From a virus: a stretch of DNA of 64,000 bases. The notes under the pieces were generated by a model. The model ran no database searches and had not been told where the DNA came from. It saw only the letters and a program-made list of their open reading frames with translations. The stretch lies in IMG/VR virus record IMGVR_UViG_3300025141_014429, positions 1 to 64,000 of that record; one strand, given 5' to 3'. Positions 17,771 through 33,811 of this stretch are shown in pieces (the stretch's first letter is position 1; each line of letters opens with the position of its first letter). Both the position numbers and the translations under genes were made by a program.

Positions 17771-17822
17771 ATTATACCATATTATTTTTAAGTCTGTATC
17801 CGGAACCGGTCAAAAAATGACC
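17771..17822 (-). promoter_or_regulatory. Sigma-B promoter, duplicate of the sigma-A promoter
   Basis: On the minus strand, GGTCA/TGACC inverted repeat (17822-17808), then ATACxG, then AATATGGTATAATATATC with the -10 at 17776-17771. Matches the sigma-A promoter over about 90 bp. No CGTGCAAA box. Confidence 0.65.
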
Positions 17823-18181: not shown

Positions 18182-19564
18182 ATGAAGATTACAAGAAGAC
18201 AACTTAGACAAATCATTGAATCAAGTGTTATCAAGCGAGGCGACGATTACGTCGCTCCCGTTGAAGCCCCACTCACAGATCCGCGAGATTATGATTTTGA
18301 CCTATCAGATGAAAACAAAGAAAAACTCCATGCATTAGCAGGATCAGATCCGAATTCAGGCGGACCGGCTCAGGCAGACAGCTTAGCTGACACCTTAGAT
18401 TTCCCTAGTTCAGGTCGTTTCGGTGCAGATACGCTAAGCATGCAAACAAAAATGTATGACATGGGCTTGGATTTAATTAATGATCCGGAAGTCGATCAAC
18501 TACTAGATCGTGCAATTGAACTCTCTGTTAAAGATAATTATTCAGAACACATAACTGATGATCTCATTTACGTTCTAAATGCAGGTTATAAGTATCCAGA
18601 AGGGCCGGGTGGTTTTCAGTTATTTTTAAATGGTGATCCGGATTTTAATGATGAAAATCTGGATACTGAATGGGGAGGGCTAAATACTACAGTTTTTCAT
18701 CCAGGTCGGCCGGCGATTACCTCTGATCTGATTACCTTTGTCATGAGAAAAATGTACTTCCTAATTGGGATAAAACTCACCGGTATTCAAGATTCAATGC
18801 GCAGGGATGGTACCTCAGCTTTAGAATTGGTCGATGACTTCAGCTCCGATAGAAATGTAGAAGAACTTGCTCCGGAATACTTGAAGCAACGTTTTGAAAA
18901 GTTTGAGAAAGTCAAAGAATTATTTAAAAAAAGAACATCGAAGGCAAGATATCCTGCGGTTGCTCAGCATGTATACGACAAGTTGATGAAGCCAATGTAC
19001 GAGATATTCACCTCAGCTCATAAAGCTTATAAGCATGTTGACCCAGAGATAGACATGAGCCAAATCAAAGAGAGTAAGTTAGGAGACAACATGAAGCTAA
19101 ACAGAAAATCACTGCGCCGACTCATTATGGAAGAAATCGAAATTCTTGCAGAAGCGCCAGAAAACTCGCCCTTTCCTTATCGCGCAAAGGTCATGCTCGG
19201 TCTAGTACCTGGTGTGGACGTTTTACCAACTAGTGCAGTTGAAGAGCCATGGAATTCAGATGATGATGAACATCGAGCACTCTATGTCGCGCTACAAGAT
19301 CTAGGTGACATTGTCATGCCCGGATCACAAAACAGCACAGGTCAAGTTCAACTCAGGCAGGAAAAACTACGAGGTGGTGAGCGCTTACCCTTTCTTATGG
19401 ATAAGCTTAACATTGCAAAGAGTATCATCATGGATTCTGTCGATCCTTCTACAGAAAGAAAATGGTTTGTTAGAGAGGAAGACGCTCTAGTCCACTTTAT
19501 TACAGAACTAGGGCGTGTACTAACTAGAGAATCAGGCGGTCCGGACTTTAGCGTACTACAGTAG
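18182..19564 (+). CDS. Virion-type protein with two capsid-targeting-like peptides, 460 aa
   Basis: N-terminus MKITRRQLRQIIESS is the first of the shared targeting peptides. At residue 304 a second one appears in frame, MKLNRKSLRRLIMEE, encoded at 19091 just behind TTAGGAGACAAC, a strong internal ribosome site. Either two genes have fused in frame, or a 157-aa product is also made from the internal start. Both halves are acidic and lack domains I recognise. By analogy with T4, cutting after IIE and LIME would release two mature head-internal proteins. Confidence 0.8.
   Translation: MKITRRQLRQIIESSVIKRGDDYVAPVEAPLTDPRDYDFDLSDENKEKLHALAGSDPNSGGPAQADSLADTLDFPSSGRFGADTLSMQTKMYDMGLDLINDPEVDQLLDRAIELSVKDNYSEHITDDLIYVLNAGYKYPEGPGGFQLFLNGDPDFNDENLDTEWGGLNTTVFHPGRPAITSDLITFVMRKMYFLIGIKLTGIQDSMRRDGTSALELVDDFSSDRNVEELAPEYLKQRFEKFEKVKELFKKRTSKARYPAVAQHVYDKLMKPMYEIFTSAHKAYKHVDPEIDMSQIKESKLGDNMKLNRKSLRRLIMEEIEILAEAPENSPFPYRAKVMLGLVPGVDVLPTSAVEEPWNSDDDEHRALYVALQDLGDIVMPGSQNSTGQVQLRQEKLRGGERLPFLMDKLNIAKSIIMDSVDPSTERKWFVREEDALVHFITELGRVLTRESGGPDFSVLQ
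19091..19564 (+). CDS. Alternative internal product, 157 aa
   Basis: In-frame ATG with AGGAGACAAC at ideal spacing and a complete targeting peptide immediately after it. It was probably an independent gene originally. Nested in the 460-aa frame above. Confidence 0.55.
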   Translation: MKLNRKSLRRLIMEEIEILAEAPENSPFPYRAKVMLGLVPGVDVLPTSAVEEPWNSDDDEHRALYVALQDLGDIVMPGSQNSTGQVQLRQEKLRGGERLPFLMDKLNIAKSIIMDSVDPSTERKWFVREEDALVHFITELGRVLTRESGGPDFSVLQ

Positions 19565-19571
19565 GTTAATA

Positions 19572-19664
19572 ATGAAACTTACAAGAGTACAATTGCGAAG
19601 TCTGATAGACGAGCTCATGAGCTTAGACTACCAATTAACACCCGTTGTAATTGCAAATCGATAA
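19572..19664 (+). pseudogene. Orphan targeting-peptide fragment, 30 aa
   Basis: MKLTRVQLRSLIDELMS is a clear copy of the shared N-terminal peptide but the frame ends after 30 codons. Its 3' part overlaps the C-terminal end of the minus-strand beta-barrel gene. Best explained as the 5' remnant of a virion gene replaced by insertion of the barrel gene. Confidence 0.55.
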
Positions 19665-20164
19665 TAGTCCTTCACATCGGGTATATAAGCCACATGAACA
19701 GGTACACTAAACTTACCTGCCTGCTGTGTCCATCCTACAGCAGTTACTAAATGAAAATAATGTTCCTGATTAGATGGGTCATATATAGTACCATTCACGC
19801 CCACACCTAGCTGTAGAGCCTCGTTGATCTCGAAGCCTACCAATACATTAGCACTAGGTGCTAGTACACTCTGGTCAATACCAGAGACCATGATGTTTTG
19901 TATATAGAGGATATCTAGCCAGTCACCCCCATGCATTGTCTGCTGCATCTCGAATCCGAGTGAAACCATATGTGGACTTTCTAGTCTGTCGCTTGTGTCA
20001 GCTTTATTTGCGTAAGTGTAGCCAAAACGCATACCTTTTCTCGTCGTCCATTCTTCACCCGTCAGGTCATACACTTCATCGTTTTTTGCATATGATATAG
20101 TGGGTATCATTGTGAAGATAATTGTTATCAGTACTATGATTAATCCTATGAAATTCTTTAACAT
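19628..20164 (-). CDS. Outer-membrane beta-barrel-like protein with signal peptide, 178 aa
   Basis: N-terminal signal sequence (MLKNFIGLIIVLITIIFTMI then SYA, probable cleavage near residue 26), followed by amphipathic strands with Gly/aromatic alternation (MRFGYTYAN, ANVLVGFEI, LQLGVGVNG) and a terminal aromatic W, typical of small outer-membrane barrels. Opposite to its neighbours, it looks like a moron. TATAAT lies 40 bases upstream on its strand, and AAAGGAGACACT is its ribosome site. Possible roles are receptor masking or serum/phage resistance, by analogy with Lom/Ail. Confidence 0.72.
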   Translation of the reverse strand: MLKNFIGLIIVLITIIFTMIPTISYAKNDEVYDLTGEEWTTRKGMRFGYTYANKADTSDRLESPHMVSLGFEMQQTMHGGDWLDILYIQNIMVSGIDQSVLAPSANVLVGFEINEALQLGVGVNGTIYDPSNQEHYFHLVTAVGWTQQAGKFSVPVHVAYIPDVKDYYRFAITTGVNW

Positions 20165-20275
20165 AGTGTCTCCTTTATAATAGATTGATTCAATTATAAC
20201 CGGTCAATACAAGAAGTACTAACTAATTTATAACTTTTGCAAATTATTTCATATTTATCGATAGAGGGGTATCTT

Positions 20276-20869
20276 ATGAAAATAACAAGACGACAATTAA
20301 GAAAACTTATTATGGAGCAACTCAATACAGATCAGCTTCAAAAACTAAGTGGTTATCTATATAGCGATAATGAAGAAGACCTCAGGCAAGGCTTAGCACT
20401 AGTGCAATCTTTTATTGATGAAGAGGGCATGTATCCAGGAGTGACGCAATTATATAATGAAGTGGCTGCTGCTAAAAATGCAAAAATTGAACAGGTAAGA
20501 GGTGAGCTCACCAGTTTAGAACAGCAAAATACTGATATCCGCAATAAAACACGTAGTGTCTTAAAACAAATTGATGTACATCGTGATAGTTTTATAACAG
20601 GTGAGGAACCGAGTACTGGGCATAGCATGCTTAAACAAATAGCTGGTGTCGACATGCCGCAAGATAAGCTTAATGTGATGAAAAGAGAATTTACCCACCT
20701 CATACACAGAGGTTTTAAAGCCGAAAAAGCATTGGAAGCAAAGCATGCAGAACTCCAAAAACTTTTAAATAATTACAGAATATTTGAAGAATTCCCTATT
20801 GAATTAGACTATGGTAACAGGGGAAGTGTTGTCATACAAGACCCACTGATGGAATCTAAGTGGAAATAA
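20276..20869 (+). CDS. Coiled-coil virion-type protein with targeting peptide, 197 aa
   Basis: Start fixed at 20276 because GAGGGGTATCTT precedes it and the peptide MKITRRQLRKLIMEQL begins there; cleavage would follow LIME. The rest is largely helical with coiled-coil stretches (IEQVRGELTSLEQQNTDI). No known domain. TTTGCAAA (20236) and TATTTATC (20252) lie upstream as candidate promoter parts. Confidence 0.8.
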   Translation: MKITRRQLRKLIMEQLNTDQLQKLSGYLYSDNEEDLRQGLALVQSFIDEEGMYPGVTQLYNEVAAAKNAKIEQVRGELTSLEQQNTDIRNKTRSVLKQIDVHRDSFITGEEPSTGHSMLKQIAGVDMPQDKLNVMKREFTHLIHRGFKAEKALEAKHAELQKLLNNYRIFEEFPIELDYGNRGSVVIQDPLMESKWK

Positions 20870-20871
20870 GT

Positions 20872-20946
20872 CGAGAAGGACCCGTGGTCCTACTCGGCGC
20901 TCGTAGAGTAAAAGTCGCGCCGGCGGACGGCGGGAATTCTTTTTTA
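20872..20946 (+). ncRNA. GC-rich double hairpin with T-run
   Basis: Hairpin 1: CGAGAAGGACC 20872-20882 with GGTCCTACTCG 20886-20896 (one mismatch, loop CGT). Hairpin 2: GGCGC 20896-20900 with GCGCC 20917-20921, then GGCGGACGGCGGG and T6 from 20940. Either a strong terminator for the preceding gene or a short structured RNA. Confidence 0.5.
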
Positions 20947-20985
20947 ATGTTTTTTAGGTTGATTAAGAATAATTATGTATAGGTT

Positions 20986-21015
20986 AATGGGATGAGGTTG
21001 GTTGTGTGTCCCATT
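20986..21015 (+). other. Hairpin exposing GGTTGGTTG
   Basis: AATGGGA 20986-20992 pairs with TCCCATT 21009-21015. The 16-base loop contains GGTTGGTTG (20996-21004), complementary to CAACCAAC, which occurs in the leaders of promoter 1 and sigma A. Sits 35 bases before gene 21051. Confidence 0.35.
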
Positions 21016-21050
21016 TATTAAATGAATTGTTTAAACATAAGGTGAGTTAA

Positions 21051-21764
21051 ATGAAGTTAAACAGAATTAAACTGCGACAATTAATTATTGAAGTTCTGGT
21101 TGAGGGAAGTCACAAGTATGTTGCTAAGTCTGGAATTGGTGGAGAAGATGATGAAGTTTATACGATGGATCAAACCCATGTAGCTAAATTAACTGGAAGA
21201 ACACTTGACGCGATGTCAAAAGGCAAGCACCCAAATCTTGGTGCGTTAAAGGTGAGTGACCCAGACTATGCAAGTAAATTAGCATCAGATGCAGGATATC
21301 AACCAGAAACAACTACTATCGAGCGCGGTGCGCAAAATATTCCAGACAGCGAATTTACTAAACCAGACTCACCACTCCAAGATTATTCACAAGGTAAGTC
21401 AATAGAATTTACGAAGTATTTGAAAAAAGAATGCAGGAAAAGAGGATATACTTGTACTGTTAAAGACGAGAGAAACTTTGACCCTGAGGATCCTTTTCTT
21501 GCTGTGAGTGTTATGGATGATAATGCAATTGAAAGGAAAAAACTTTACGGTGAAAGTGAGTATGGTATTGATGCTAGTATTCATTTGAGTGACGATGGAG
21601 AAGGTATCTTTATTGAAATTTTTGACAACAGAGTCGATGCATCACCATTCAGCTTTAATGATGCTAGTATTGGTTTTGGTGAAGCAGAGACTGCACCATA
21701 TTTTAAACAGTCTGGTGGTTTAGATGAACTAGCAAAAAGAATTTTAGATAGTACTGCATATTGA
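21051..21764 (+). CDS. Virion-type protein with targeting peptide, 237 aa
   Basis: MKLNRIKLRQLIIEVLVEG carries the shared peptide, with a predicted cut after LIIE. The body is acidic and soluble with no domain I recognise. AAGGTGAGTTAA ribosome site. Separated by two bases from the Ig-like protein downstream, so probably a two-gene unit. Confidence 0.8.
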   Translation: MKLNRIKLRQLIIEVLVEGSHKYVAKSGIGGEDDEVYTMDQTHVAKLTGRTLDAMSKGKHPNLGALKVSDPDYASKLASDAGYQPETTTIERGAQNIPDSEFTKPDSPLQDYSQGKSIEFTKYLKKECRKRGYTCTVKDERNFDPEDPFLAVSVMDDNAIERKKLYGESEYGIDASIHLSDDGEGIFIEIFDNRVDASPFSFNDASIGFGEAETAPYFKQSGGLDELAKRILDSTAY

Positions 21765-21778
21765 ATGAAGGAGTATGT

Positions 21779-22624
21779 GTGAGTGAAAAAAATAACTTAT
21801 TAGATATTGATGGTTTTGTTGACTTAGTTAAAATGTTGGATGAAGAATTGCTATCAGAAAACCCTAGCGTAAATGTTAAAAAACATTCTCTACAAGAGCA
21901 ATTCATAGAAGTAATTAGAGATGCTGATGCTTTTGAAGAGTGGCAAGAATTATCGAATCAAAGAAAAATTGAGATGCAGGAAAGCTTTTCAGAATTTGGT
22001 AAAAAAACTAGAGGTCGAAGACGTAGATTGTTTGTACCTATAATAAATTCTGGTCCCGGTGCTATTGTTCAGGGAAATGCACAACAAATAAATTTCACAG
22101 GACAAAATTTTGGTAATAGTGAAATACAAATTCAATATGTCTTTGGAGGATCCTCAGCAACATCAACTGCTACACCAGAAAATCAAGGAACTTCTGCAAA
22201 TACATTTGTTCCAGCGGCTGTTTATGGACAAACGTTAGGTACCAGCATTACTATGTCTATAGTTGCAAATAACTTTACATCAAATGAATTTACAACAAAT
22301 GTTTTAGGCATTGTTATAGCACAACCTAACATTTTAAGCATTACAGGAGATATAAAGAATGGAGCTGTAACTACATTAACAATTGCCGGATCTAACTTTG
22401 GATCCGGAGCACCGGGACATCCTGCAATAGTTCAATTTAATGTAGGTGGTTCAATTACAAATCAAAATGCTGTGTCTACTAGTCAAACTTTAGTTACAGT
22501 TGAGGTACCGCCTGCTATTTATAGTCAGCCTGTTGGAACTACAGTTAATATTAAAGTTTTACGGAATGATGGTGGATCACCAGTTCCATCAGGCAACAGT
22601 ATTAATAAAACAATTATATCTTAA
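21779..22624 (+). CDS. IPT/TIG-like Ig-domain protein, 281 aa
   Basis: GTG start at 21779 behind GAAGGAGTATGT; the apparent TTG start upstream has no ribosome site. About 85 acidic helical residues lead to two tandem IPT/TIG-type Ig domains (QQINFTGQNFGNSEIQI and TTLTIAGSNFGSGAPG, each the characteristic GxxFG turn). Such domains decorate capsids or tail fibres in phages. Probably a virion surface or fibre component. Confidence 0.72.
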   Translation: MSEKNNLLDIDGFVDLVKMLDEELLSENPSVNVKKHSLQEQFIEVIRDADAFEEWQELSNQRKIEMQESFSEFGKKTRGRRRRLFVPIINSGPGAIVQGNAQQINFTGQNFGNSEIQIQYVFGGSSATSTATPENQGTSANTFVPAAVYGQTLGTSITMSIVANNFTSNEFTTNVLGIVIAQPNILSITGDIKNGAVTTLTIAGSNFGSGAPGHPAIVQFNVGGSITNQNAVSTSQTLVTVEVPPAIYSQPVGTTVNIKVLRNDGGSPVPSGNSINKTIIS

Positions 22625-22669
22625 AATTAGCTTATTCCTTAATAATTATACTTGTATTACGGAGTATAT

Positions 22670-23122
22670 ATGGATTCAATGTTAGATATACTGTTAAATC
22701 ATGGCTCTCTCGGTGTATTTGCTGCTTTTTTAATTTGGTTATATACCAATATGCAGCAACGCATGGATGAGTTAGTCAATAAATTTCAAACTCAAATAGA
22801 TGAGATGCGCAAAGATCAAAAAGATGAACAAGAATTACTACGTGTTCGTTATGATGATGTAATTGCAAAGTATGATTCTGAACGTAAACAAATGCGACTT
22901 CAAATCAAAGATAGATTAGAAAAGGTTGGATTGCGAACACAAAAAATCGATCAAAGAACATCTAACATTCTGATTAGACAAGAAAGCGGCAATGATGATA
23001 TTGGTTCTCTTGATAAGAAAATAGAAATAATGGCAGATCTGCTCAAACAAATGGAACAAGAGCAAAGAGTTAGAAATTTAGTTAAAATGGCTCATGGTGA
23101 TAATACTATTCCCCCAAAATAG
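22670..23122 (+). CDS. BhlA/holin-like membrane protein, 150 aa
   Basis: Start at 22670 after TACGGAGTATAT. One N-terminal TM segment (SLGVFAAFLIWLYTNM) is followed by a long charged coiled coil. This order, hydrophobic anchor then QxRxDELxxK helix, resembles BhlA/UviB-type holin-like proteins. The nearby peptidoglycan-related genes fit lysis, but a tail-tube or tether role is also possible. Confidence 0.55.
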   Translation: MDSMLDILLNHGSLGVFAAFLIWLYTNMQQRMDELVNKFQTQIDEMRKDQKDEQELLRVRYDDVIAKYDSERKQMRLQIKDRLEKVGLRTQKIDQRTSNILIRQESGNDDIGSLDKKIEIMADLLKQMEQEQRVRNLVKMAHGDNTIPPK

Positions 23123-23132
23123 AAGTGATTAA

Positions 23133-23858
23133 ATGAAAATATCAGAAAACAAAATAAGAAGATTGATAAGAGAATCTTTGTTTGGTAAAAGAATAAAGAC
23201 TATTAATGAAAGTATCATTGATAATTTTGTTGCAAAAGCAAAAGAAATAGGTGGTGACATTGCTAACAAAGCTGCTGAGTTTGGGGAAAATTTTCTTAAA
23301 TTTTATTCGGCAACACCTGCAGGATTAATATTTAGTTCATTAACTGGATGTTCATCATCAGGATGTAGTAAAGCAGGTTGTCATTGGGTTTGGTGGTTTA
23401 ACAACGGTATAATGAGTACTTGCAAATATAATCTATATGCTGTATCTGCTCAAGATGGTTCTATTCAGAAAAATTTTCACATTATTCACTGGCCTAAAGA
23501 ATCTTTTGATGAATTAATATCTGAAGATAGTATTTTTTGTGAAAAAGACTTTTCTAAAGCTTTTGGAAAATCTGAATGGGGAGATATTTTTGAAATGTTG
23601 CAAAATAGAAAAAAAGATGAAGAGCTTCTAGAATACACACTCAGTGAAGAAACTAATCGCGACTTAGATAACGGAGGTGTGTGCTGGGCCATTGACATGT
23701 CTCCTGGCACTATTTCAGATGCAAGGATTCCTCAAACACCAGGAATACTCATTGGAATAGATTTAGACGGGTACATTGATGTGCTTAATGAACCTAATAA
23801 TTTTCAAATCATAGGGGATCCTGTTTTAGTTGAAAGTGGTGGTGGCGCTAGCGGGTAA
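23133..23858 (+). CDS. Virion-type protein with targeting peptide, 241 aa
   Basis: MKISENKIRRLIRESLFG is a diverged shared peptide (cut after LIRE). A Cys-rich patch follows (SGCSKAGCHWVWWFN, then STCKYN), possibly disulfide- or metal-bound, and a C-terminal acidic domain. No known family. The gene ends a five-gene + strand unit. Confidence 0.75.
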   Translation: MKISENKIRRLIRESLFGKRIKTINESIIDNFVAKAKEIGGDIANKAAEFGENFLKFYSATPAGLIFSSLTGCSSSGCSKAGCHWVWWFNNGIMSTCKYNLYAVSAQDGSIQKNFHIIHWPKESFDELISEDSIFCEKDFSKAFGKSEWGDIFEMLQNRKKDEELLEYTLSEETNRDLDNGGVCWAIDMSPGTISDARIPQTPGILIGIDLDGYIDVLNEPNNFQIIGDPVLVESGGGASG

Positions 23859-23882
23859 TAATTTTTAATATATTAAAAATAT

Positions 23883-23912
23883 TTTGTAAACCCACCCCTT
23901 TATGTGTATAAT
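23883..23912 (+). promoter_or_regulatory. Array-type promoter (TTTGTAAA variant)
   Basis: TTTGTAAA 23883-23890, 16 bp, TATAAT 23907-23912. Same geometry as the early array but with TTTGTAAA. It drives the gene at 23976. Confidence 0.7.
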
Positions 23913-23975
23913 ATTATTAATTGGTTCAACAAATACCAGTTAAAAATCATAAAAAATTAAAGGGAGATATAATTT

Positions 23976-24176
23976 ATGAGATACAATAAATCAAAAGCTA
24001 CTACAAGATTCAATTTCAACATTAACCGTGATACAATCTCACACAAGAAAGGCGTTAATCGACTAGTAATTGGAACACGTGACAGTGGAACATATGGTAC
24101 TACTTCATCACAGTTTACATTGACTGTTAAAGAAGCAAAAGCACTTCGAAGCTTTTTGAATGAACATCTAGGTTAA
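23976..24176 (+). CDS. Small basic protein, 66 aa
   Basis: MRYNKSKATTRFNFNINRDT, a beta-rich middle and a helix VKEAKALRSFLNEHL. It lacks the targeting peptide and is monocistronic between a promoter and a terminator. AAGGGAGATATAATTT ribosome site. Function unknown. Confidence 0.78.
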   Translation: MRYNKSKATTRFNFNINRDTISHKKGVNRLVIGTRDSGTYGTTSSQFTLTVKEAKALRSFLNEHLG

Positions 24177-24206
24177 TTAGTTAAAGCTTTAGATTATAAA
24201 AAAAAG

Positions 24207-24233
24207 AAAACCTCCCTTATGGGAGGTTTTCTA
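24207..24233. terminator. Bidirectional rho-independent terminator
   Basis: AAAACCTCCC 24207-24216 pairs with GGGAGGTTTT 24221-24230, loop TTAT, with A- and T-rich flanks on both sides. Separates converging genes 23976 (+) and 24234 (-). Confidence 0.88.
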
Positions 24234-25253
24234 TTATCTTCTTCGATCCCAAATTCTTGCGTTATTTCTTTTCTTTTGTTTTTTTGCTGCGTAATATAAT
24301 CTTTTAAATGCATTTCGTACATTTTCATTTCCAGATCCTAAGTTTGACATATATTGTAGATTTTCCTCTAATTCTCTGTCATACTGGTTATCAAATCCGC
24401 TTTTTCTAACATTTTTATACCACGTATTTAAAAGCCATATAAAATTCTCTTTTAGCGCTTTCTTTTCTGACATACTATAGTCAGTGTAATTTTTAAGCTC
24501 TTCTAAGTATGTATTAAAGAAATCTTTCATATTGTTAATGGCATCAAATTTATCGCCCATATTATCTTCATCTTCATAGTATCCTATCTTGTAACCTAAT
24601 TCAATAACAAGATTGTAAAAATGATCCATCATATCAACACCTGTATCTAAACTTGATATGAGATTATAAGACATTCTACCGGATCCTGGTGCCGCATTTG
24701 TATCAAAAAATCCGGCATCCAACATTTGTTGAAACCATGTTTCTTTTGTCCTAGAGTCTATCGGTGCCATTAACCAATCTACTGTTTTTAAAAATTCCGC
24801 AGCTGCTGACTGTGCTGAGGATATCCTCCTATCAGCATTTCTTATTGGGGGGCTCACGTTGCGTGCCATGTTACATAGTGAAATATAAGCCTTAAGAAAT
24901 TCTTTGGCGTTCTGTATTTTTACAATATTTTGTGCGCCGGCAGCTAATTCTTGCATGGAATGTTGTTGTTGCTCTTGTTGTTGCTCTTCCTGCGCTAAAA
25001 TAATTTCTTCAGCTTGAGAAAAGCTCATCAAACCATCATCAACTTTTCCAAGAATATTAAAAATATTTCCCAAATCTTGGAAAGATTTACTTGCTGTAGG
25101 GTCAGGATTCTTATCCGGATGATAAGTTCTAGCAAATTCCCTATACTTGCTTTTAAAATCATTTTTTTCATATGCATCAAGCAAATCTTGTTTTTGTTTC
25201 TGGCTTAATTGTTCACTAATTAATATTTTGATAATTAATTTATCTACGAGCAC
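24234..25253 (-). CDS. J-domain (DnaJ-like) virion-type protein, 339 aa
   Basis: Residues 17-70 form a J domain with the HPD motif at 45-47 (EFARTYHPDKNPDPTA). A Gln-rich linker and a long helical region follow. The N-terminus MLVDKLIIKILISEQL fits the shared targeting pattern (cut after LISE), so the J domain would be near the new N-terminus of the mature protein. J proteins recruit Hsp70. An ejected one could redirect host DnaK on infection. Only minus-strand member of the targeting-peptide set. Confidence 0.8.
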   Translation of the reverse strand: MLVDKLIIKILISEQLSQKQKQDLLDAYEKNDFKSKYREFARTYHPDKNPDPTASKSFQDLGNIFNILGKVDDGLMSFSQAEEIILAQEEQQQEQQQHSMQELAAGAQNIVKIQNAKEFLKAYISLCNMARNVSPPIRNADRRISSAQSAAAEFLKTVDWLMAPIDSRTKETWFQQMLDAGFFDTNAAPGSGRMSYNLISSLDTGVDMMDHFYNLVIELGYKIGYYEDEDNMGDKFDAINNMKDFFNTYLEELKNYTDYSMSEKKALKENFIWLLNTWYKNVRKSGFDNQYDRELEENLQYMSNLGSGNENVRNAFKRLYYAAKKQKKRNNARIWDRRR

Positions 25254-25312
25254 TATTCACCTCTTGTTTATAGTTAATTATGTGGTGATATTGTAATTTT
25301 CTATGTAAAGTA

Positions 25313-25597
25313 ATGAGCAGCAGAATAAAATATAATGAAGAGAGCGCAACTCAAAGTATTGAGGGATATTGGTGCATAAGGGACTTAAGGGTTGGAGATG
25401 TTATCAAGATCAAACCTGCTTTAGAAAAAAAGCAACCTACTCTCTTTCCTCAGTCTGGATACTGCATTGTAATAAAAGTTATAAAACATATATACAAAGA
25501 TTACCCAGATGAGCATCTTCTTCACGTCCTTAGTAAAAAAAGAGGAATATTTAAAATTCAACCAGAGTGTTGCATGTTAGTAGTAGGCGTTTCATGA
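25313..25597 (+). CDS. Hypothetical beta-rich protein, 94 aa
   Basis: DLRVGDVIKIKPALEKKQPT and GYCIVIKVIK suggest a small barrel. First of three ATGA-coupled genes. No good ribosome site is visible before ATG 25313. Function unknown. Confidence 0.7.
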   Translation: MSSRIKYNEESATQSIEGYWCIRDLRVGDVIKIKPALEKKQPTLFPQSGYCIVIKVIKHIYKDYPDEHLLHVLSKKRGIFKIQPECCMLVVGVS

Positions 25598-25839
25598 AAG
25601 ACAAATTTAAAATAGAAAAAGGTGATTTACTGAAGATCGGGTTAGAAACCTTAGGAACATTCTGGTGTGACTCAGGGGAAAGCTTTGACTACATAGTACC
25701 TAGAGGAACAGTAACTGTGGCTATGTCAAATATTAATCAGATTCCTGGTTGGGAAATATTAGAACTAGATATACTATTAGACAATAGAATTGTTACCTTA
25801 ATTTTAAATACTGATTTAGCTGAGATAGATATAATTTAA
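25594..25839 (+). CDS. Hypothetical beta-rich protein, 81 aa
   Basis: Start at 25594 overlaps the previous stop (ATGA). FKIEKGDLLKIGLETLGTFW again starts with a GDLxKI turn, so it may be a diverged tandem copy of the preceding barrel-like protein. Unknown role. Confidence 0.7.
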   Translation: MKDKFKIEKGDLLKIGLETLGTFWCDSGESFDYIVPRGTVTVAMSNINQIPGWEILELDILLDNRIVTLILNTDLAEIDII

Positions 25840-26051: not shown

Positions 26052-26063
26052 ATATTTATTTTT

Positions 26064-26447
26064 ATGTTAATAAGCGAAACAATACTGAGATTGTCTATTG
26101 CTAGGCTGATTATTGAGAGTGACAATGTGGACAGCAAAAAGGCTGTTGAGTATGTGAAAAAGTATCTTGGCCCGGAGTACTTATATCTTTTAGCGCAACC
26201 TGCATTAATACAAGTGCTAGGCTCAACTTTTCAACCGATAACTGTACCTTCACATGTAAGAGACGTAAGAATAGAAGATCATGAAAAAGATGCAAAAGAG
26301 TCAGAAAAACTTAGCAAAGGATCATTAAAAATAGGTAAAGCAGGTGAATTTGATATTTATGATGTCAATATCGATTCAATTGAAGACATAACAGATGAAT
26401 TAAAATTTCGTGATGAAACTAGTTTCTTAGATAAGAAAAAGAAGTAG
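26064..26447 (+). CDS. Virion-type protein with targeting peptide, 127 aa
   Basis: MLISETILRLSIARLIIES fits the shared peptide with a longer spacer (cut after LIIE). No SD; TATTTATT (26053-26060) ends 3 bases before the ATG, as at 18182. C-terminal half is charged and Lys/Asp-rich. No known domain. Confidence 0.7.
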   Translation: MLISETILRLSIARLIIESDNVDSKKAVEYVKKYLGPEYLYLLAQPALIQVLGSTFQPITVPSHVRDVRIEDHEKDAKESEKLSKGSLKIGKAGEFDIYDVNIDSIEDITDELKFRDETSFLDKKKK

Positions 26448-26457
26448 CAATCGATAT

Positions 26458-26724
26458 ATGTCTTCAAAAAAGAAATGTTGCAAAATAAAGACTTATGATC
26501 TAGTCTCATCGCAGGTATTTTCTGCAGGCTATTCGGCGCCGGGTCCTAATCAGACTTTTATAGAAGCTAGTAGGCAAAGAATGTTTACTGGTTACGCAAT
26601 AGTCCTAGAACCTGTGGATGAAGATGTAACAGACCCCACTTGCAAAATTATGTTGTCAAATGGTAGTACACTTAGAGTTCGTTCAGGATATTTATTAATA
26701 TTGTCTAACTATGAAGAATCATAA
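26458..26724 (+). CDS. Hypothetical beta-rich protein, 88 aa
   Basis: Basic Cys-containing N-terminus (MSSKKKCCKIKTYDLV) and strands such as GYAIVLEPVD and LRVRSGYLLIL, barrel-like. Ends one base before the next start. Function unknown. Confidence 0.68.
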   Translation: MSSKKKCCKIKTYDLVSSQVFSAGYSAPGPNQTFIEASRQRMFTGYAIVLEPVDEDVTDPTCKIMLSNGSTLRVRSGYLLILSNYEES

Positions 26725-26725
26725 A

Positions 26726-27196
26726 ATGAAATTATCTAGAAAAATCATAAGAAAAATAATAATTGAGTCACTTTCAGAAGATCGTCATGATCCCAACAAG
26801 CTAAATCTTCACGATGCAAAAATTGGTGATATACCAATTAAAATTCAAATATGCGATGAAATTGAAGATAGAAAGAAAGGACTCATGTTTCGTCACAGCA
26901 TGCCAAAAAATGAAGGAATGTTGTTTATTCATGATGCACCGATAGAAGCTAGTTATTATATGAAAAATACCTACATTCCTTTAACAATTGCTTTTGCGGA
27001 TGAAGAAGGTGTTATATTTCAAATGGAAGACATGTCACCTGAAGATTTAACAAGTAAAGTATCAATTCAACCTGCTTTATATGCTTTAGAAATGAATCAG
27101 GGATGGTTTGATCGGAACGGAATAGTTATAGGTGACAATATAGATTTTAAGGAGAGATTGTGCAAAGACTTAATAAATATGAACTCAGATATCTGA
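26726..27196 (+). CDS. DUF192 protein with targeting peptide, 156 aa
   Basis: Start at 26726 because MKLSRKIIRKIIIESL, the shared peptide (cut after IIIE), begins there. The rest is a typical DUF192 domain: ICDEIEDRKKGLMFR, MPKNEGMLFIH, YYMKNTYIPLTIAF, ALEMNQGWFDRNGI. DUF192 proteins are small beta proteins, usually periplasmic, of undetermined biochemical role. Its fusion to a capsid-targeting peptide implies packaging in the head. Overlaps the next gene by 37 bases. Confidence 0.82.
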   Translation: MKLSRKIIRKIIIESLSEDRHDPNKLNLHDAKIGDIPIKIQICDEIEDRKKGLMFRHSMPKNEGMLFIHDAPIEASYYMKNTYIPLTIAFADEEGVIFQMEDMSPEDLTSKVSIQPALYALEMNQGWFDRNGIVIGDNIDFKERLCKDLINMNSDI

Positions 27197-28077
27197 TTAA
27201 TGAAGAATCTAAATCAACTCAATATAGTCAACAAAAGCTAGATGAAGGTGCATTAGACTACGTAGAAAATCTTGCTGTTACTGCACTAGGACATGCAGGA
27301 TTTGGTGATGCTGCTGCTGCTATTAAAGCTGTAGGACCTGATGCTTATAGAGTTGGAAAAAGTGCTATGGAACTTAATACTGAATTAGAGAAAGCAACAA
27401 ATGGAATGTTAAATTTAGTAGACTTTTTTCGTGAAGATATTGACGATAACCCAGAAATGCAAGAAGCTTTAATGATTATATCAAGTCCGGAGTTAAGTCA
27501 GCCAGATAGAGATTTAATCAAGCAAAAGTTGGTCCGGTTAGGTGAAAATACGAAAAAGTTATTAGTATCTATAGTTTCAATATTTCCTGATGTTGTAATA
27601 TCAGGAAGCATTGCCTTAGCCATAACAAATATGCCTATTGAAAAGTTTTTAATAGAAGCAGCTGGAGTTTTCGCTGATATGATGGATAAAGCTGAAGAAT
27701 CTATGTTTGGCGGTGTAATGAAAGGATTTTTAGAGTTCATGGCTAAACTAGCTAATGGGCCGGCAGGATTACTATTTAACAGTCCGCTAATTACATTTAA
27801 GAATATGGGTGCTTTAGCTAATGCAACACTAAACCCGGGTGTTACCCCTTTTAAACAGTTTAGTTCTTCTCTTTCTGATGCAGGCGTTACAGATATGGCA
27901 AAAGGTATTGCTAAAGACAAAGCTTTAGGTTATTTAGACAACTTTAGTGCTATTGATGATTTTGACTTAGATGCGCCTGATTTGCAAATGGTAGCTGAAT
28001 CTAGAAAAAGAACAGCAGTAAATCAAGGACCTTCATTCAATGAAGCGAGAATGCTAAAACTAGCAGGAATCAAATGA
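27160..28077 (+). CDS. Virion-type protein with targeting peptide, 305 aa, GTG start
   Basis: GTG start after TTAAGGAGAGATT. MQRLNKYELRYLINEES is a shared-peptide variant (cut after LINE). The centre holds three long hydrophobic helices (LLVSIVSIFPDVVISGSIAL, MPIEKFLIEAAGVFADMM, NGPAGLLFNSPLITF), which could insert into membranes. Candidate ejected pore-type protein; similar organisation to 29374. Family unknown. Confidence 0.75.
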   Translation: MQRLNKYELRYLINEESKSTQYSQQKLDEGALDYVENLAVTALGHAGFGDAAAAIKAVGPDAYRVGKSAMELNTELEKATNGMLNLVDFFREDIDDNPEMQEALMIISSPELSQPDRDLIKQKLVRLGENTKKLLVSIVSIFPDVVISGSIALAITNMPIEKFLIEAAGVFADMMDKAEESMFGGVMKGFLEFMAKLANGPAGLLFNSPLITFKNMGALANATLNPGVTPFKQFSSSLSDAGVTDMAKGIAKDKALGYLDNFSAIDDFDLDAPDLQMVAESRKRTAVNQGPSFNEARMLKLAGIK

Positions 28078-28532
28078 GACTAACAAGAAGACAATTAAGA
28101 CAGTTAATCTTAGAGCAAGCAGATGTAGTTATTGTTGATCCAAAAACAGAAGATGAAGCTGAAGCGAATAATAGAGATCAAGATAAATTAAAAAAACAAA
28201 TAGCAGATGATAATCCAGATGCATCTCCTGAGGATGTTGACAGTGCATATGAAAAGATAAAATCCGAACAAAATGAATCAATTACTCTTATGAAAAAACC
28301 CATGCATAATCATGACAGTGTATCAATAGTTGACTTTATGGGTAGGCCAGATCACGAAGGTAAGATGGCTTATAAACAACTTAAGAGAACTAGTTCGATG
28401 TCTCAATCACTCTGTCACAGACTGGAAGATAAAGAAAACATACAACTTCCTGCCTGGGTACAGTCAAAAATAACAAAAGCAGCTGACTATATACAAACTG
28501 TATACAACTACTTGGATGAAGATCTAGACTAA
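28074..28532 (+). CDS. Virion-type protein with targeting peptide, 152 aa
   Basis: MRLTRRQLRQLILEQAD is nearly the consensus peptide (cut after LILE). ATGA overlap with the preceding gene. Acidic helical body with DNPDASPEDVDSAYEKI and a C-terminal helical region. No known domain. Confidence 0.82.
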   Translation: MRLTRRQLRQLILEQADVVIVDPKTEDEAEANNRDQDKLKKQIADDNPDASPEDVDSAYEKIKSEQNESITLMKKPMHNHDSVSIVDFMGRPDHEGKMAYKQLKRTSSMSQSLCHRLEDKENIQLPAWVQSKITKAADYIQTVYNYLDEDLD

Positions 28533-28601
28533 TAAACTGTACTTTTCTTTCTAAACGTATATGTAGTTTATATAGGTTTAGATTAGTTTAGTGAGTTATT
28601 T

Positions 28602-28937
28602 GTGCCAGAATTTCAGTCGCTTGTATTATTTTTAATTACTGTCATTGTTTCATCAGTATACATTTTAGGTAGATTTGTTGATCATCATGATCCTAATTCA
28701 AAACAAAATTATTACGATTATAATTCGAACAATAAGGCAAACAACAGAGAAAATCATACTGCGATGATTAAAAAACAATCTATAAAAATGATAGAGCAAG
28801 AACTTCGTGATCGAAAGTTAGTTAATCAAACTGTTCATAAGATTATGTCTTTACAGAATAAAAACAATCTTGAAGAGATGGAAGTCTACGATATAAAGAC
28901 AGGAAAGAAAATCAAATACTATAAAGAAAATAGTTGA
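28602..28937 (+). CDS. Membrane-anchored coiled-coil protein, 111 aa, GTG start
   Basis: GTG start behind TTAGTGAG; one N-terminal TM helix (SLVLFLITVIVSSVYILG), then an Asn/Lys-rich soluble helix (MIEQELRDRKLVNQTVHKIM). No targeting peptide. Possible Rz-type spanin or holin-associated protein; not certain. Confidence 0.6.
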   Translation: MPEFQSLVLFLITVIVSSVYILGRFVDHHDPNSKQNYYDYNSNNKANNRENHTAMIKKQSIKMIEQELRDRKLVNQTVHKIMSLQNKNNLEEMEVYDIKTGKKIKYYKENS

Positions 28938-29003
28938 TATTTTCATATCTTTAGAATAAACGTGGTGCAGTAGATATTTATAAGTATAATTTTGGGGGTT
29001 GCC

Positions 29004-29357
29004 GTGAAAAATATTAACAGAAAACTACTAAGGGAATTAATAGTTGAGGAAATTCTTAATGAGTGCGGTTGTAAAGCTGCAGCTCCAGATCCAAGAGAAT
29101 TAATTCCTCAATTTGAAATTGTAGGACTTGAGAATCATCCGCATTTTGATATGATATCAGATTATGAATTAGATCGAGAAGGTCATGCGCTAGATGCAAA
29201 ATGCCCGGGATCTTATGCAAAAACTGCAGATCAACTTGTAATTAATCCAGAATTTGTTGCTAGTATAATAAAGATTTTAATGGATAAGTCCGGATCAACA
29301 TGTCCACAAAGTTCTGCAAAAGCTTTAAATGACATTGCTACGCTGTATAATTTTTAA
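29004..29357 (+). CDS. Virion-type protein with targeting peptide, 117 aa, GTG start
   Basis: GTG at 29004 follows TTGGGGGTTGCC and starts the peptide MKNINRKLLRELIVEEIL (cut after LIVE). The body has a CGCKAAA patch and acidic segments. TATTTATA lies 21 bases upstream. Unknown domain. Confidence 0.75.
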   Translation: MKNINRKLLRELIVEEILNECGCKAAAPDPRELIPQFEIVGLENHPHFDMISDYELDREGHALDAKCPGSYAKTADQLVINPEFVASIIKILMDKSGSTCPQSSAKALNDIATLYNF

Positions 29358-29373
29358 GGAGAATTAGAATAAA

Positions 29374-30150
29374 ATGAAAAAATCTAAAAGAACACTTTTA
29401 AAAAGTAATAAAATTGCTCAATTAGTCTTGATGGAAGCCAAACTATTAACAGAAGAAAAAAGAATTCTTGATGGCTTGATACTTGAAGGTCGAAAAATGG
29501 AAATGGCTGGATATGATCAGATTGCAATCAATGAAGGCATTATGGATATGCTCAAAAAATTCGGTGGTGATGCTCTAAGCGGAGGTATTGAAAAGATGAA
29601 AGAATATTTTGTTGAAGGCATGCTTAAATTTTTCGGCTTGGACCCTAAAGCTAATACTGCAATGGGTTTAGTAGGATGCGCAATAAAAAATAGTTTAGGT
29701 AATCTTTCAATTGAGAAATTTCAAGAACTAATCACCGGAACAAGAGAAGGATTTTCTGGATTCAATGCAGAAAGTATGAAAACTGTCTGGGGAAATGTTT
29801 GCAATGATGTTGCTGATTTAATAATTCAAGGTATTACAGAGTGTGGTGTAGAAAAAGCACAGAATTCTAAATTTGTTGAAAACTTTTATGGTGCAATTGT
29901 TGGTCAGACAACTGCAGCTGCTGCTAAAGATAATCCTCTTTGGCAAATAAGTGATGAAATGTTCCAGAACTTTATTAACAATACAGAAGTAATGGGATCT
30001 ATAAGAGGTGCAATTACTGAATTTGTTTGTAATTTAAATATTGTAGAAATGCTAGACTATGCTACAAAACAATTAGGTAATATGGCTGGCGGGTTTTTGG
30101 ATATGTTTGGACTAGGAAATATGTTTGGTGGTACACCTGCTAAAGCTTAA
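29374..30150 (+). CDS. Virion-type protein with diverged targeting peptide, 258 aa
   Basis: MKKSKRTLLKSNKIAQLVLMEAK is a longer, diverged version of the peptide (cut after LVLME). A Gly/Met-rich C-terminus (MAGGFLDMFGLGNMFGG) and amphipathic helices suggest a membrane-active or flexible protein. AAGGAGAATTAGAATAAA ribosome site. No family known. Confidence 0.72.
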   Translation: MKKSKRTLLKSNKIAQLVLMEAKLLTEEKRILDGLILEGRKMEMAGYDQIAINEGIMDMLKKFGGDALSGGIEKMKEYFVEGMLKFFGLDPKANTAMGLVGCAIKNSLGNLSIEKFQELITGTREGFSGFNAESMKTVWGNVCNDVADLIIQGITECGVEKAQNSKFVENFYGAIVGQTTAAAAKDNPLWQISDEMFQNFINNTEVMGSIRGAITEFVCNLNIVEMLDYATKQLGNMAGGFLDMFGLGNMFGGTPAKA

Positions 30151-30163
30151 TTAGGAATCGTTA

Positions 30164-33067
30164 ATGAATAAAAAAAATAAAAGAAAAATCAGATTAACAG
30201 AATCGCAGCTTCAAAAACTAATCTTAAAAGAATTTAGACCTAAAAAGACTATGCCCGGTGGGGATGTCATTACTTCAAGTGGTAAAAAGTATCGAGTACC
30301 TGGAAGTCCTAAAAAGACTAGAAATAGACAAGCAGTTGAGGATATTGGTGATGGTGCAGGTGATAGAGAAATAGCTTTTTTTGATTCAACACAAAAACTC
30401 ATATTAAATTTTGAATCTACACCTAGCTTGCTGGAAGCAACTTATGCAAGTGTACAATCCTTTGTATCTAATAATTGGGATGATTTAACTAACGGCTTGA
30501 TTGAAGGTCTTTACTTTGGAGATCCTAATAATCCCGGTAATATAGTATCTGATCCTATAGATACAATCTGGAATTGGACAGCATCATTTCTTATACAACG
30601 AGGTCAGTCAATATCTGATGTTGCTTCAAATTTTGAACTTGCACAAGTGAGTGAGAGATTAAGCAAGCTTCGAGCTTTTGAAGGTGTAGACGTCGTTGGT
30701 TCTTTCGCGGGTCAGCTTTTAATATCAATAGAAAGTTTAGAACAACTTTGTGATTTTGGAATTACACTCCTCTCAGAGCCTATATCTACGGAAAACATTG
30801 ATGATCTTTTTCAAATAGTTTCTCTACTTGCAGGCAACAAAAGATCAATAAAGGATGCACTTGGAAGATCAGGAGAATTAAACTCTGTGTGGTCTGATTT
30901 TAAACAAAAATACATGAAAGGTGCTATAGAAATATTTAACGCAACAACAAACGCGAAAATACAGACAGGTGAGGCAGACTTTGCAAATCCTGGCCCAGTT
31001 ATGGCCACAGATAAGCAAATTGTTGTTAACGCATTGGAATATTTCAAACACGCACTCTGGGAACAAGGTGGATTGAATCAGTGGGTAATGTTTGAAGGTG
31101 ATGTACAAATAGCAACAAAGACTGTAAGTAGAAATGAGGCCGGCCCTCTTGATAAACTGCTTACATTCATTGGATATGGAGATGCTAATCAAGAGATTGA
31201 AGTTCCTGATCCTGAAAATAGTACGTTTAATTTTACTAGGACATCACCTGGTAATCAGACTATTATTGAACGATTGGACTTTCTTGATGACTACTACGGA
31301 AGACAACGACAGGAAGCTCAAAATACTTTAAATAGTTTAGGTAATACAATACAGAATAGTTTAGGTGATCAAGCTAAACAACAACTAGAAGCATTTAAAT
31401 CTTTACAAGCCATAATGGCTTCAACTATGAAAATATCTAGAGCTATTAGAAGAAATTTACAGGTTGCGCAAGCTTTAAGACTTCCAGGTCAAGGTAGTGA
31501 CACTAGTGTACAATTAGCCCTCCAGTTCGATGAATCAATTAGAGATAGAAGAAAAAATAAGAAGCTTCTACTAGAGCAGGCCAGTGCTGTAAACTATGCT
31601 GGTAATTTTGGTGACTACGTAGATCAGTTAGCAAATTCACAAGGAGGACCGTTTACAGGAAGTGAGCTTCAAAATTATACTCTAACTGATGAAGACGAAG
31701 CAGCTCTCTGGTTAGGTCCTGATCAAAATGCTGACCCTTTTAAAATGGATAATTTAATGGGTAATGACACTTGGCCAGGCCCTGATTATGCAGGTCTAGC
31801 CAGTGCAGTAGTAGCATTTATGTTTACTGAAGAAGGTATGGCGCGAACAGGTGCTTACATTAATGATGATGAAAGTGAAGTTGGCTTACCTAATGAAGAC
31901 ACAGTAGCATTTTACATACTAGATATGAAGTCAGAAGACGAAGACAATCCAAAGTGGATAAATATTTTATATCAACCTGACTTTGCTGTTGCTTTTGAGG
32001 AGGCATTAGAAAGACAATTTGGGCAGTACCAACGTGTTATAAAATTACCCCCCAATCCAGAAGAAGATCCAGAAAAACCTGAAGAAGAAGATAAAAAAGG
32101 TAAAAATTGTCCTAAGGATAAGTTAAGCGTTGAGATTGAAGCACTCCCTGATAACAAAGCTAGAACTTTAAAATTCCAGAAAATTATAAACAAATATATA
32201 ACTCATCACGATTTAATGGGCGGTTCAATTGGTGAAGATGGAAAATGGGGACCTAGGACTGATGAAGGTTTTGAAAGGGTGCTTATTCATGGTTTGTCAG
32301 ATACACTAAATCATCCTGTTTACGGTGACTTAAATTTAAATAATAATGCTATATCATCTATGGCTTCTAAATGGAAACAAAACGCTAGAAGGCTAAATAG
32401 GACAGGTTACATCAACAGTAATGATAATGGAGATATAACAGGAGCACTTGCTTTAGTTTATGACCTCTATAATTGTAATGATGAGTACGGAAAGAAAACA
32501 ATTAAAAGAAGTGGAGTGCCAAAAAAATCTACACCTGAAAAATCTGGTAAACCTAGGAAAGTAGGGGCAAAGAATGATGATGATGGTGTAGAATCTAAAG
32601 GTAAGTGCGCTGATGGTTCTGCTATGAAGAAGGCAACTTGGCGCGATATACAAATTCAATTTAATCAAAAATCAAAAAAGTTTGCTCTAGATCCGAAATC
32701 TGTTGATCAGTTAAAGGTTGATTTGGCAAAACAAACAGCTGCATTTATTGTTAACCCACCGCATAATATGAATCCAGTCGATCGTGAGCATGTAGGGACA
32801 TTTACAGTTGGTATGGGCGGAAGAATTAAAAATAGAAAATCTCATGACTGGAATGTTCCAGATGCTTATGAGAAGATCATTGATAAGGCTATGAAGAATC
32901 TAATTCAAAAAGCAAAAAAAGACTCTAAAGGTTTAGACGTTGTTAGAAATTCTAACATTATTATTACAATTCCTTGTGGAAACTATACTACACTTGCTGA
33001 GTCAATTAGGCAGAAAAGAGAAAAAGATTTTGAGAATCTTTTGCGTGAATTGATTAAAAAGGTATAG
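30164..33067 (+). CDS. Giant virion-type protein with peptidoglycan-binding-like segment, 967 aa
   Basis: Begins MNKKNKRKIRLTESQLQKLI, with the shared peptide displaced by ten basic residues. Long helical parts follow. Around residues 680-710 the sequence HHDLMGGSIGEDGKWGPRTDEGF resembles a PG_binding_1 domain (GxWGPxT). The C-terminal 130 residues form a separate basic domain. Position next to an M15 peptidase supports a role in cell-wall penetration or as a large internal/ejected protein. Confidence 0.7.
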   Translation: MNKKNKRKIRLTESQLQKLILKEFRPKKTMPGGDVITSSGKKYRVPGSPKKTRNRQAVEDIGDGAGDREIAFFDSTQKLILNFESTPSLLEATYASVQSFVSNNWDDLTNGLIEGLYFGDPNNPGNIVSDPIDTIWNWTASFLIQRGQSISDVASNFELAQVSERLSKLRAFEGVDVVGSFAGQLLISIESLEQLCDFGITLLSEPISTENIDDLFQIVSLLAGNKRSIKDALGRSGELNSVWSDFKQKYMKGAIEIFNATTNAKIQTGEADFANPGPVMATDKQIVVNALEYFKHALWEQGGLNQWVMFEGDVQIATKTVSRNEAGPLDKLLTFIGYGDANQEIEVPDPENSTFNFTRTSPGNQTIIERLDFLDDYYGRQRQEAQNTLNSLGNTIQNSLGDQAKQQLEAFKSLQAIMASTMKISRAIRRNLQVAQALRLPGQGSDTSVQLALQFDESIRDRRKNKKLLLEQASAVNYAGNFGDYVDQLANSQGGPFTGSELQNYTLTDEDEAALWLGPDQNADPFKMDNLMGNDTWPGPDYAGLASAVVAFMFTEEGMARTGAYINDDESEVGLPNEDTVAFYILDMKSEDEDNPKWINILYQPDFAVAFEEALERQFGQYQRVIKLPPNPEEDPEKPEEEDKKGKNCPKDKLSVEIEALPDNKARTLKFQKIINKYITHHDLMGGSIGEDGKWGPRTDEGFERVLIHGLSDTLNHPVYGDLNLNNNAISSMASKWKQNARRLNRTGYINSNDNGDITGALALVYDLYNCNDEYGKKTIKRSGVPKKSTPEKSGKPRKVGAKNDDDGVESKGKCADGSAMKKATWRDIQIQFNQKSKKFALDPKSVDQLKVDLAKQTAAFIVNPPHNMNPVDREHVGTFTVGMGGRIKNRKSHDWNVPDAYEKIIDKAMKNLIQKAKKDSKGLDVVRNSNIIITIPCGNYTTLAESIRQKREKDFENLLRELIKKV

Positions 33068-33070
33068 AGT

Positions 33071-33811
33071 ATGATTATTAACGAATTAATGCTTAGAAAA
33101 ATCATAAAAGATCAGCTAGTCAAAGAGCAGGTTTCTGCTAGAGGTTCTATAGTTCCAGGAGCAGAAACCGGTTCATCTGATTCTTCTGATGAAAGCGAAG
33201 ACGTAAATATTGATGCTGTCACTAAAAAAGGAGGTAAGTTTTATTTAGGTAATATCTCCACCGGTCTATCAGGAGATAAGTTTAAAAAATTAATGGCTGA
33301 TATGCAAAACTTTATTAATAAAGAGTACCCAGAAGTTGGCATACAGATAGAGTCCCTAGGTATTATGAGAGACTTAGAGTCTGCAGCTGATACTTCAAAT
33401 CCTAATAGGATCCCAGGATCTAAACACGGAGCAGGATTAGCTTTGGATGTTAAATATCATACAAAAAAACACGGAAGATATACAAATTATGAAAAAAATA
33501 ATGCAAAATTAGCTAAGGATCCTAAGTTTTTAAAAACACTGCAAAAGTTTAATGAAACTCAAAGTGATATCGGGTGGGGTGGTACTTGGGGTAAATCAAA
33601 TCCGGCAGAGGGTATGGCTCAAGGTAAAGGAATTACTGAATTACACCACTGGGAAATTAGAGACGCCAGCGTGCCGGAATATTTTGAAAAATTTCCAAAA
33701 GTTAAAAAAGCTATAGAAGATTTAGGAATGACTTCTAAGGATATGATCAAAAAAGATAACAGGTCTAAGCTTTATAAAGCACTGGTAAGTAGTGCAAAAA
33801 AGTCTTCTTAA
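33071..33811 (+). CDS. M15-type peptidoglycan peptidase with targeting-like N-terminus, 246 aa
   Basis: MIINELMLRKIIKDQLVKE resembles the shared peptide. The catalytic part contains SKHGAGLALDVKYH and later HHWEIRD, matching the H..D...HxW zinc-ligand pattern of D-Ala-D-Ala-type M15/VanY peptidases. These enzymes cut peptide bridges in peptidoglycan. Three bases after the giant gene. It could be the endolysin or a virion-borne enzyme; the targeting-like start favours the latter. Confidence 0.75.
   Translation: MIINELMLRKIIKDQLVKEQVSARGSIVPGAETGSSDSSDESEDVNIDAVTKKGGKFYLGNISTGLSGDKFKKLMADMQNFINKEYPEVGIQIESLGIMRDLESAADTSNPNRIPGSKHGAGLALDVKYHTKKHGRYTNYEKNNAKLAKDPKFLKTLQKFNETQSDIGWGGTWGKSNPAEGMAQGKGITELHHWEIRDASVPEYFEKFPKVKKAIEDLGMTSKDMIKKDNRSKLYKALVSSAKKSS

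Follow-up and report, generated by a model that had tools for sequence, protein, structure and literature searches.

A short N-terminal peptide on otherwise unrelated proteins of T4-related phages: a candidate prohead-targeting propeptide

Motif genes and head module of the record

The window analyzed in this study is the first 64 kb (64,000 bases) of a 123,028-base IMG/VR virus record (IMGVR_UViG_3300025141_014429; G000 in our analysis); gene calls outside annotated records were made by script. Its first part (1-20000) is densely packed with mostly small ORFs, has a G+C content of 0.38-0.44 versus 0.29-0.37 further on, and holds a single tRNA gene (tRNA-Arg at 13118). A run of genes between 18182 and 33811 encodes proteins with a shared N-terminal peptide, M-K-[IL]-T-R-R-Q-L-R-[KR]-[LI]-I-x-E. 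The genes are listed below with their scores under the final profile; in the notation of sites, ^ stands after the E.

18182-19564, + strand: 460-aa ORF with two peptide copies and two different cargo domains in one frame
18182, residues 1-14: first copy, MKITRRQLRQIIES, 35.7 bits
18182, residues 304-317: second copy, MKLNRKSLRRLIMEEIEILAEA, 28.7 bits
19091-19564, + strand: internal in-frame peptide copy with its own ATG and AGGAG, 28.7 bits
19572-19664, + strand: 30-aa ORF opening with the peptide, stop after residue 30, 23.5 bits
20276-20869, + strand: motif protein, 197 aa, coiled-coil-like body, no Pfam match above cut-off, 39.3 bits
21051-21764, + strand: motif protein, 237 aa, sites I-I-E^V and L-V-E^G, 26.1 bits
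23133-23858, + strand: motif protein, 241 aa, sites I-R-E^S and I-N-E^S, 27.4 bits
24234-25253, - strand: J domain protein (Pfam DnaJ, E 1.1e-7), N-terminus loosely similar, 1.8 bits
26064-26447, + strand: 127 aa, -0.8 bits
26711-27196, + strand: DUF192 protein (Pfam E 1.7e-28, from residue 38); peptide MKLSRKIIRKIIIESLSED at 26726, the probable start, 24.9 bits
27160-28077, + strand: motif protein, 305 aa, 17.3 bits
28074-28532, + strand: motif protein, 152 aa, 37.7 bits
29004-29357, + strand: motif protein, 117 aa, sites I-V-E^E and L-N-E^C, 20.9 bits
29374-30150, + strand: 258 aa, sites L-M-E^A and L-T-E^E, own N-terminus -6.6 bits
30164-33067, + strand: motif protein, 967 aa, peptide IRLTESQLQKLILKEF from residue 9, 23.3 bits
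33071-33811, + strand: M15-like peptidase (KHGAGLALDV ... HHWE), diverged peptide MIINELMLRKIIKD, 14.1 bits

An earlier, sequence-only reading had named fifteen carriers of a capsid-targeting-like peptide in this run. Twelve of the fifteen hold, at 14.1-39.3 bits, and three (24234 on the - strand, 26064 and 29374) score below that range, all three keeping [LI]xE within their first 25 residues. Membership is doubtful for 24234-25253 (-) and 26064; 29374 may be a diverged member, because its homologue in the relative G006 has a clear motif. The start at 19091, which had been counted as an ORF of its own, is actually an in-frame copy within the ORF 18182-19564; it is flanked by I-K-E^S upstream and L-A-E^A downstream and is possibly a second start or a polyprotein junction. 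The ORF at 19572 is probably a decayed or truncated gene. Three further members of the same record (103412, 116809, and 117374) lie outside the window and were missing from the earlier list.

Searches of Pfam and PHROGs gave no match for most members in the window. The recognizable domains are DUF192 (26711), the J domain of the doubtful member 24234 (-), and the M15-like peptidase at 33071. The last matches Peptidase_M15_4 at E 0.0014, below the Pfam cut-off, and its H119, D126, and H193 are kept in two homologues; a profile search of the PDB gave no match, and the fold matches in the PDB (best E 0.9) of its structure model (mean pLDDT 48) were meaningless and were left unused. The body of 28074 is related to a G004 protein that likewise bears the motif, and that of 30164 is partly common to motif proteins of G006 and G009.

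Two genes beside the motif cluster lie on the opposite strand, lack the peptide, and encode a small AHEMTH (HExxH-like) protein (33821-34228) and a Trypsin_2 peptidase (34244-35104, E 5.1e-6). Consecutive DUF444 (YeaH-like), SpoVR, and PrkA genes follow at 36012-40511 (+), which we take to be a phage-borne version of the bacterial yeaG-yeaH-ycgB trio. A PhoH/PIN protein is encoded at 43366, upstream of a long block (47031-64104, +) that reads as glycosyltransferases, methyltransferases, an aminotransferase, epimerases, and an HMGL-like enzyme.

A T4-type head module with T4-like gene order was found in the same record, outside the window:

111744: terminase, named from sequence reading and gene order
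113362: portal, named from sequence reading and gene order
115361: head-module gene between portal and protease
116206-116808: protease, phrog_207 (head maturation protease) E 7.9e-53, Pfam Peptidase_S77 E 1.5e-29 at 116290-116712
116809 and 117374: motif genes directly behind the protease
117607 and 118109: head-module genes between 117374 and the scaffold-like gene
118825: scaffold-like gene
120471-122405: gp23-type capsid protein, phrog_138 E 9.4e-73

Capsid protein, protease, portal, and terminase in T4-like order identify a T4-related head module of the gp23/gp21 lineage. A search of the genome for a gp21-like protease had been proposed with the sequence-only reading, and it was positive: the Peptidase_S77 match (E 1.5e-29) has T4 gp21 (5jbl) as its nearest PDB chain, and in an alignment the catalytic gp21 residues H85 and S140 are kept in G000 and its relatives. 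A gp21-family head maturation protease, as expected of a T4-type capsid-targeting system, is thus present. We also looked for a close cultured relative of this phage; none was found.

Occurrence of the peptide and the proteins that carry it

A first profile was trained on 11 window peptides only, with the start Met column excluded. In a held-out test on seven related phages it gave 107 N-terminal matches of at least 12 bits, against 0.38 predicted by the internal rate and 0.75 by shuffled N-termini. The retrained profile detected 259 motif genes across 17 records, with the counts reaching 43/266 in G009, 33/172 in G019, 29/239 in G031, and 29/277 in G011. Array size varies widely, since other relatives (G007, G008, G012) have only 0-1 strong matches each. 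Conservation ends with the peptide: information is confined to residues 1-16 of the 259 proteins, and blastp sorts the 255 bodies that reach 40 aa into 212 clusters, of which 183 have a single member. The claim that the members are otherwise unrelated proteins is borne out by these clusters, and a common short N-terminal peptide on otherwise different proteins is the T4-type arrangement.

A strict back-translated pattern (MKITRRQLR, then two positions, then I) matched 31 stretches among 2.9 million viral contigs of IMG/VR; a shuffled-residue control pattern had no matches in the same contigs. In 84,980 bacterial and archaeal genomes the strict pattern was found in one contig only, NHDW01000006.1 (305,838 bases), part of a Methylococcaceae MAG. 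This contig (L209, L210, and L211 of G037:C5) holds all 27 profile matches and the sole S77 gene of that genome; terminase-, portal-, and capsid-like genes are in L210, and about 20 adjacent motif genes form a run in L209. It is most likely a jumbo phage binned in error. The nearest named record with an array is LR756508.1, an uncultured 484-kb phage that carries no annotation; it has about 15 such genes around its S77 protease and head genes, together with a related capsid protein. No profile match was obtained in T4, RM378, S-SM2, Mel-JY01, or LR756511.1, all S77-positive, and one marginal match was found in Flavobacterium phage immuto. The peptide is thus the trait of one lineage within the gp21-bearing phages, and those that carry it are uncultured T4-related phages, mostly of marine origin.

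Copies of the peptide also occur inside proteins and at their C-termini in the 17-record set. One ORF of G024 has three copies, and G019 26259 has one at each end. Upstream of 14 of the 27 internal copies there is an [LIV]xE no more than 12 residues away, compared with 5.5 expected. The ORF at 18182 and one of G035a share a first domain (49% identity) that leads through I-K-E^S or I-K-E^G into the motif and then into unrelated second domains. An EF-hand-like DVDGDGKLTISE stretch directly precedes the internal copies in G019 15340 and 26259. Copies at the extreme C-terminus (G002 133008 and 139695; G035a 11594 and 19701; G011 170131) belong to proteins that look alike between relatives, which suggests C-terminal address tags.

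Most of the cargo, as we call the bodies behind the peptide, has no recognized domain in Pfam or PHROGs. Among 136 cluster representatives, Pfam matched YkuD_2, DUF192, Peptidase_M23, NUDIX, RNase_T, HD_4, and TseH once each; PHROGs add endolysin, nucleotidase, and peptidase matches. A PDB search with a nucleotidase-like cargo protein gave no match.

The cleavage-site signature and the head protease

It has been shown that T4 gp21 cuts after L/I-x-E (PMC9026906). Columns 12-14 of the motif read [LI]-x-E in 174 of the 259 proteins, so that the T4-type site is present at the end of the peptide as a sequence signature. These columns prove little alone because they are part of the motif, and the stretch after it serves as the independent test. 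In residues 16-28, [LI]xE occurs in 126/259 proteins versus 51.6+-5.5 after shuffling (z 13.5) and [LI]xE[AGS] in 55/259 versus 11.3 (z 12.2). Control patterns in the same residues were flat ([LI]xD z -1.5, [LI]xK 0.4, [LI]xQ -0.3, [VF]xE -0.2); [LI]xR reached z 3.3 and [LI]xxE z 6.8, the latter excess probably stemming in part from L-L-x-E runs. The signal persisted after removal of similar peptides (z 13.1) and in held-out arrays (22/43 versus 6.8 expected). Site starts cluster at 12, 16-17, and 19-20 and are gone after 21. The spacing of the second sites (16/17, 19/20) is helix-like, yet clear enrichment is found only for E and L/I.

In the protein encoded beside the protease, the strongest site is L-x-E-(G/S/A), about eight residues downstream of the motif: among 62 distinct homologues of the 116809 protein it reads L (57), then a variable position, then E (59) and G/S/A (62) (the K-E-C columns served for selection and hence were not counted). 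The capsid protein has an invariant L59-x-E61 followed by A/Q/S, close to the T4 gp23 cut. The earlier identification of LIxE in the peptide as a T4-type site is supported as to type, since a second (L/I)xE(A/G/S) is enriched, and needs amendment as to place: residues 11-14 are perhaps not the sole or main cut, and the conserved I12-x-E14 could be part of a docking helix rather than the cut site.

Within cargo bodies the site is depleted. Outside the peptide, [LI]xE occurs at a ratio of 0.78 (95% CI 0.69-0.88) relative to other proteins of the same phages, versus 1.19 for [LI]xD, 1.12 for xK, 1.34 for xQ, and 1.22 for xR, the bias that an (L/I)xE protease would impose on proteins exposed to it. 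In the scaffold homologues [LI]xE is 2.10 times as frequent as expected, which fits a protein destined for fragmentation like T4 gp22. The mature capsid protein, included as a positive control for avoidance, failed with a ratio of 1.70; avoidance is thus not universal among head proteins, and we regard it as a moderate signal in cargo bodies.

The protease is followed directly by two motif proteins here and in nearly all of 80 relatives. Relatives collected via the protease are S77-positive by construction. Among the pattern-matched records S77 was found in 3 of 21, the same three being all the gp23-type capsid-positive records among 16 tested; every record with both the motif and a gp23-type capsid gene has S77 too. 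The 18 records in which S77 was undetected are probably fragments without a head module, because all 13 of those tested also have no capsid gene, and for that reason we dropped the missing S77 as a refutation.

Proposed mechanism, alternatives and comparison with known systems

We consider it highly probable that the peptide is a prohead-targeting propeptide of a T4-related lineage, with gp21-type cleavage, packaging in the head, and ejection of the cargo. In this mechanism an amphipathic helix some 16-22 residues long and positively charged would dock unrelated cargo onto the assembling head core. After closure of the shell the gp21-type serine protease would cut after (L/I)-x-E at residue 14 and/or about 18-23, and mature cargo would be released inside the head. 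A structure model of the 116809 protein has a single confident helix at residues 6-25, the motif up to the cut site, and then disorder. From the peptide, the modularity, the association with protease and head genes, the cleavage signature, and the avoidance, all computed here, we infer docking on the head core, cleavage, and retention in the head. By analogy with the T4 internal proteins and Alt, the mature cargo may then be ejected into the host with the DNA and act early in infection. The capsid-targeting reading, first put forward from the window alone, gains from the second site, the site avoidance, the protease association, the members in the head operon, and the tandem polyproteins. It is also fairly likely, in our view, that the peptide amounts to a general delivery system, in which one removable helix, placed N-terminally, C-terminally, or between polyprotein domains, loads tens of fast-evolving, mostly unknown effectors per head, and the protease is both tag remover and polyprotein cutter. 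Because the sets are replaced almost entirely from one related phage to the next, the lineage would on that reading hold hundreds of undescribed host-takeover or counter-defence proteins recognizable by a single tag.

The two motif genes in the head operon behind the protease, one with a largely disordered product in the model, and the scaffold homologues rich in [LI]xE (2.1 times expectation) would also suit a peptide that docks core or scaffold proteins whose sole role is to shape the head and which are then broken down inside it, like T4 gp22, gp67, and gp68, without any delivered cargo. We think this unlikely: most member bodies avoid [LI]xE, the opposite of a degraded core, the sets differ almost completely between phages (212 clusters), and there are enzymes among the cargo (L,D-transpeptidase, M23, NUDIX, RNase T, HD, and TseH-like domains). 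Binding to membranes or nucleic acid is within the reach of cationic amphipathic helices, and part of the cargo looks like wall-active effectors that are secreted (M23, YkuD_2, TseH-like). An address to the tail, baseplate, membrane, or nucleoid in which the head protease takes no part might be considered. However, such an address predicts neither the second (L/I)xE(A/G/S) site or its avoidance in the bodies nor the association with S77 and the members in the head operon, and it seems quite improbable.

It might also be asked if the 5' end is conserved as a nucleic-acid feature, a translation or recombination cassette encoding a functionless peptide. Codon identity within the motif (0.44-0.59) is somewhat above the expectation from codon usage (0.35-0.47), and some peptides may have spread by recombination. 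A further point in favor is AATAGTTATA, which lies some 18-40 bases ahead of several motif genes in G019, G020, and G031, and in the window upstream of 27160. It stands almost exclusively before motif genes in G019 and G020, is not a general pattern, and is possibly a lineage-specific promoter. The T4-type late promoter TATAAATA was not enriched upstream of motif genes (0/259 versus 11/1835). Synonymous codons nevertheless vary nearly as usage predicts, which places selection at the level of the peptide; there are also copies inside proteins and at C-termini, and beyond the motif the pattern carries on as a protease signature in the amino acids. A pure DNA repeat or cassette was rejected, codon identity being just modestly above expectation, and we give the nucleic-acid explanation very little chance.

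In T4 the capsid-targeting sequence has been described on Alt and on three small internal proteins, IPI, IPII, and IPIII. These T4 proteins resemble those described here in having a short N-terminal peptide that opens with M-K, a hydrophobic pair followed by x-E, and different mature bodies; IPII and IPIII begin MKTYQEFIAEA. A gp21-family protease and an L/I-x-E site are common to both systems, here by sequence signature. The T4 propeptides have 10-19 residues (PMC9026906), and those reported here 14-23. It has been shown that Alt is trimmed by gp21 at both ends, including the C-terminus (PMC5694885), a cut that the C-terminal copies in this lineage recall. Unlike T4, the present phages use another peptide sequence with a basic R/K-rich helix, have up to 43 motif genes per genome and about 20 adjacent genes in a run, and place copies internally in polyprotein-like ORFs and at C-termini. 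The likeness is one of design only: homology to the T4 peptide is not demonstrable, as the profile has no match in T4.

The ejection proteins of the phiKZ-like giant phages SPN3US and 201phi2-1 are head proteins whose propeptides are cut after x-E by a gp21-related protease, and two SPN3US paralogues have an identical N-terminal 15-residue peptide (PMC5694885). These phages differ in the cut motif (A/S-x-E), the protease (S80), and the capsid lineage. The phages studied here are not of that type: their protease is S77, L/I is enriched two positions before E, and [AGST]xE is not enriched. In the literature we consulted on phiKZ-like phages, we found no address peptide shared by dozens of unrelated proteins. 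Nor did we find a report of this peptide, or of metagenomic capsid targeting, in the open-access literature, a result that says little about subscription journals.

In T-even phages the internal proteins are a diverse defence set in which the targeting sequence alone is conserved (PMC3012670), and it has been suggested in a review that the capsid-targeting sequence may be a general packaging route for various proteins in T4-like phages (PMC9026906). A related lineage appears to have scaled up T4-style packaging, with up to 43 genes per genome and hardly any shared bodies. Should they be packaged, these proteins would be candidates for effectors of the first minute (counter-defence, wall, and nucleotide enzymes), and one sequence tag suffices to list them; the compact address helix with its cognate protease is on offer for loading proteins into phage heads. 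The concept is that of T4; the differences lie in the peptide, the number of cargo proteins, the arrays, and the placing of copies inside proteins and at C-termini, and the comparison makes testable the old question of what docks the T4 internal proteins onto the core.
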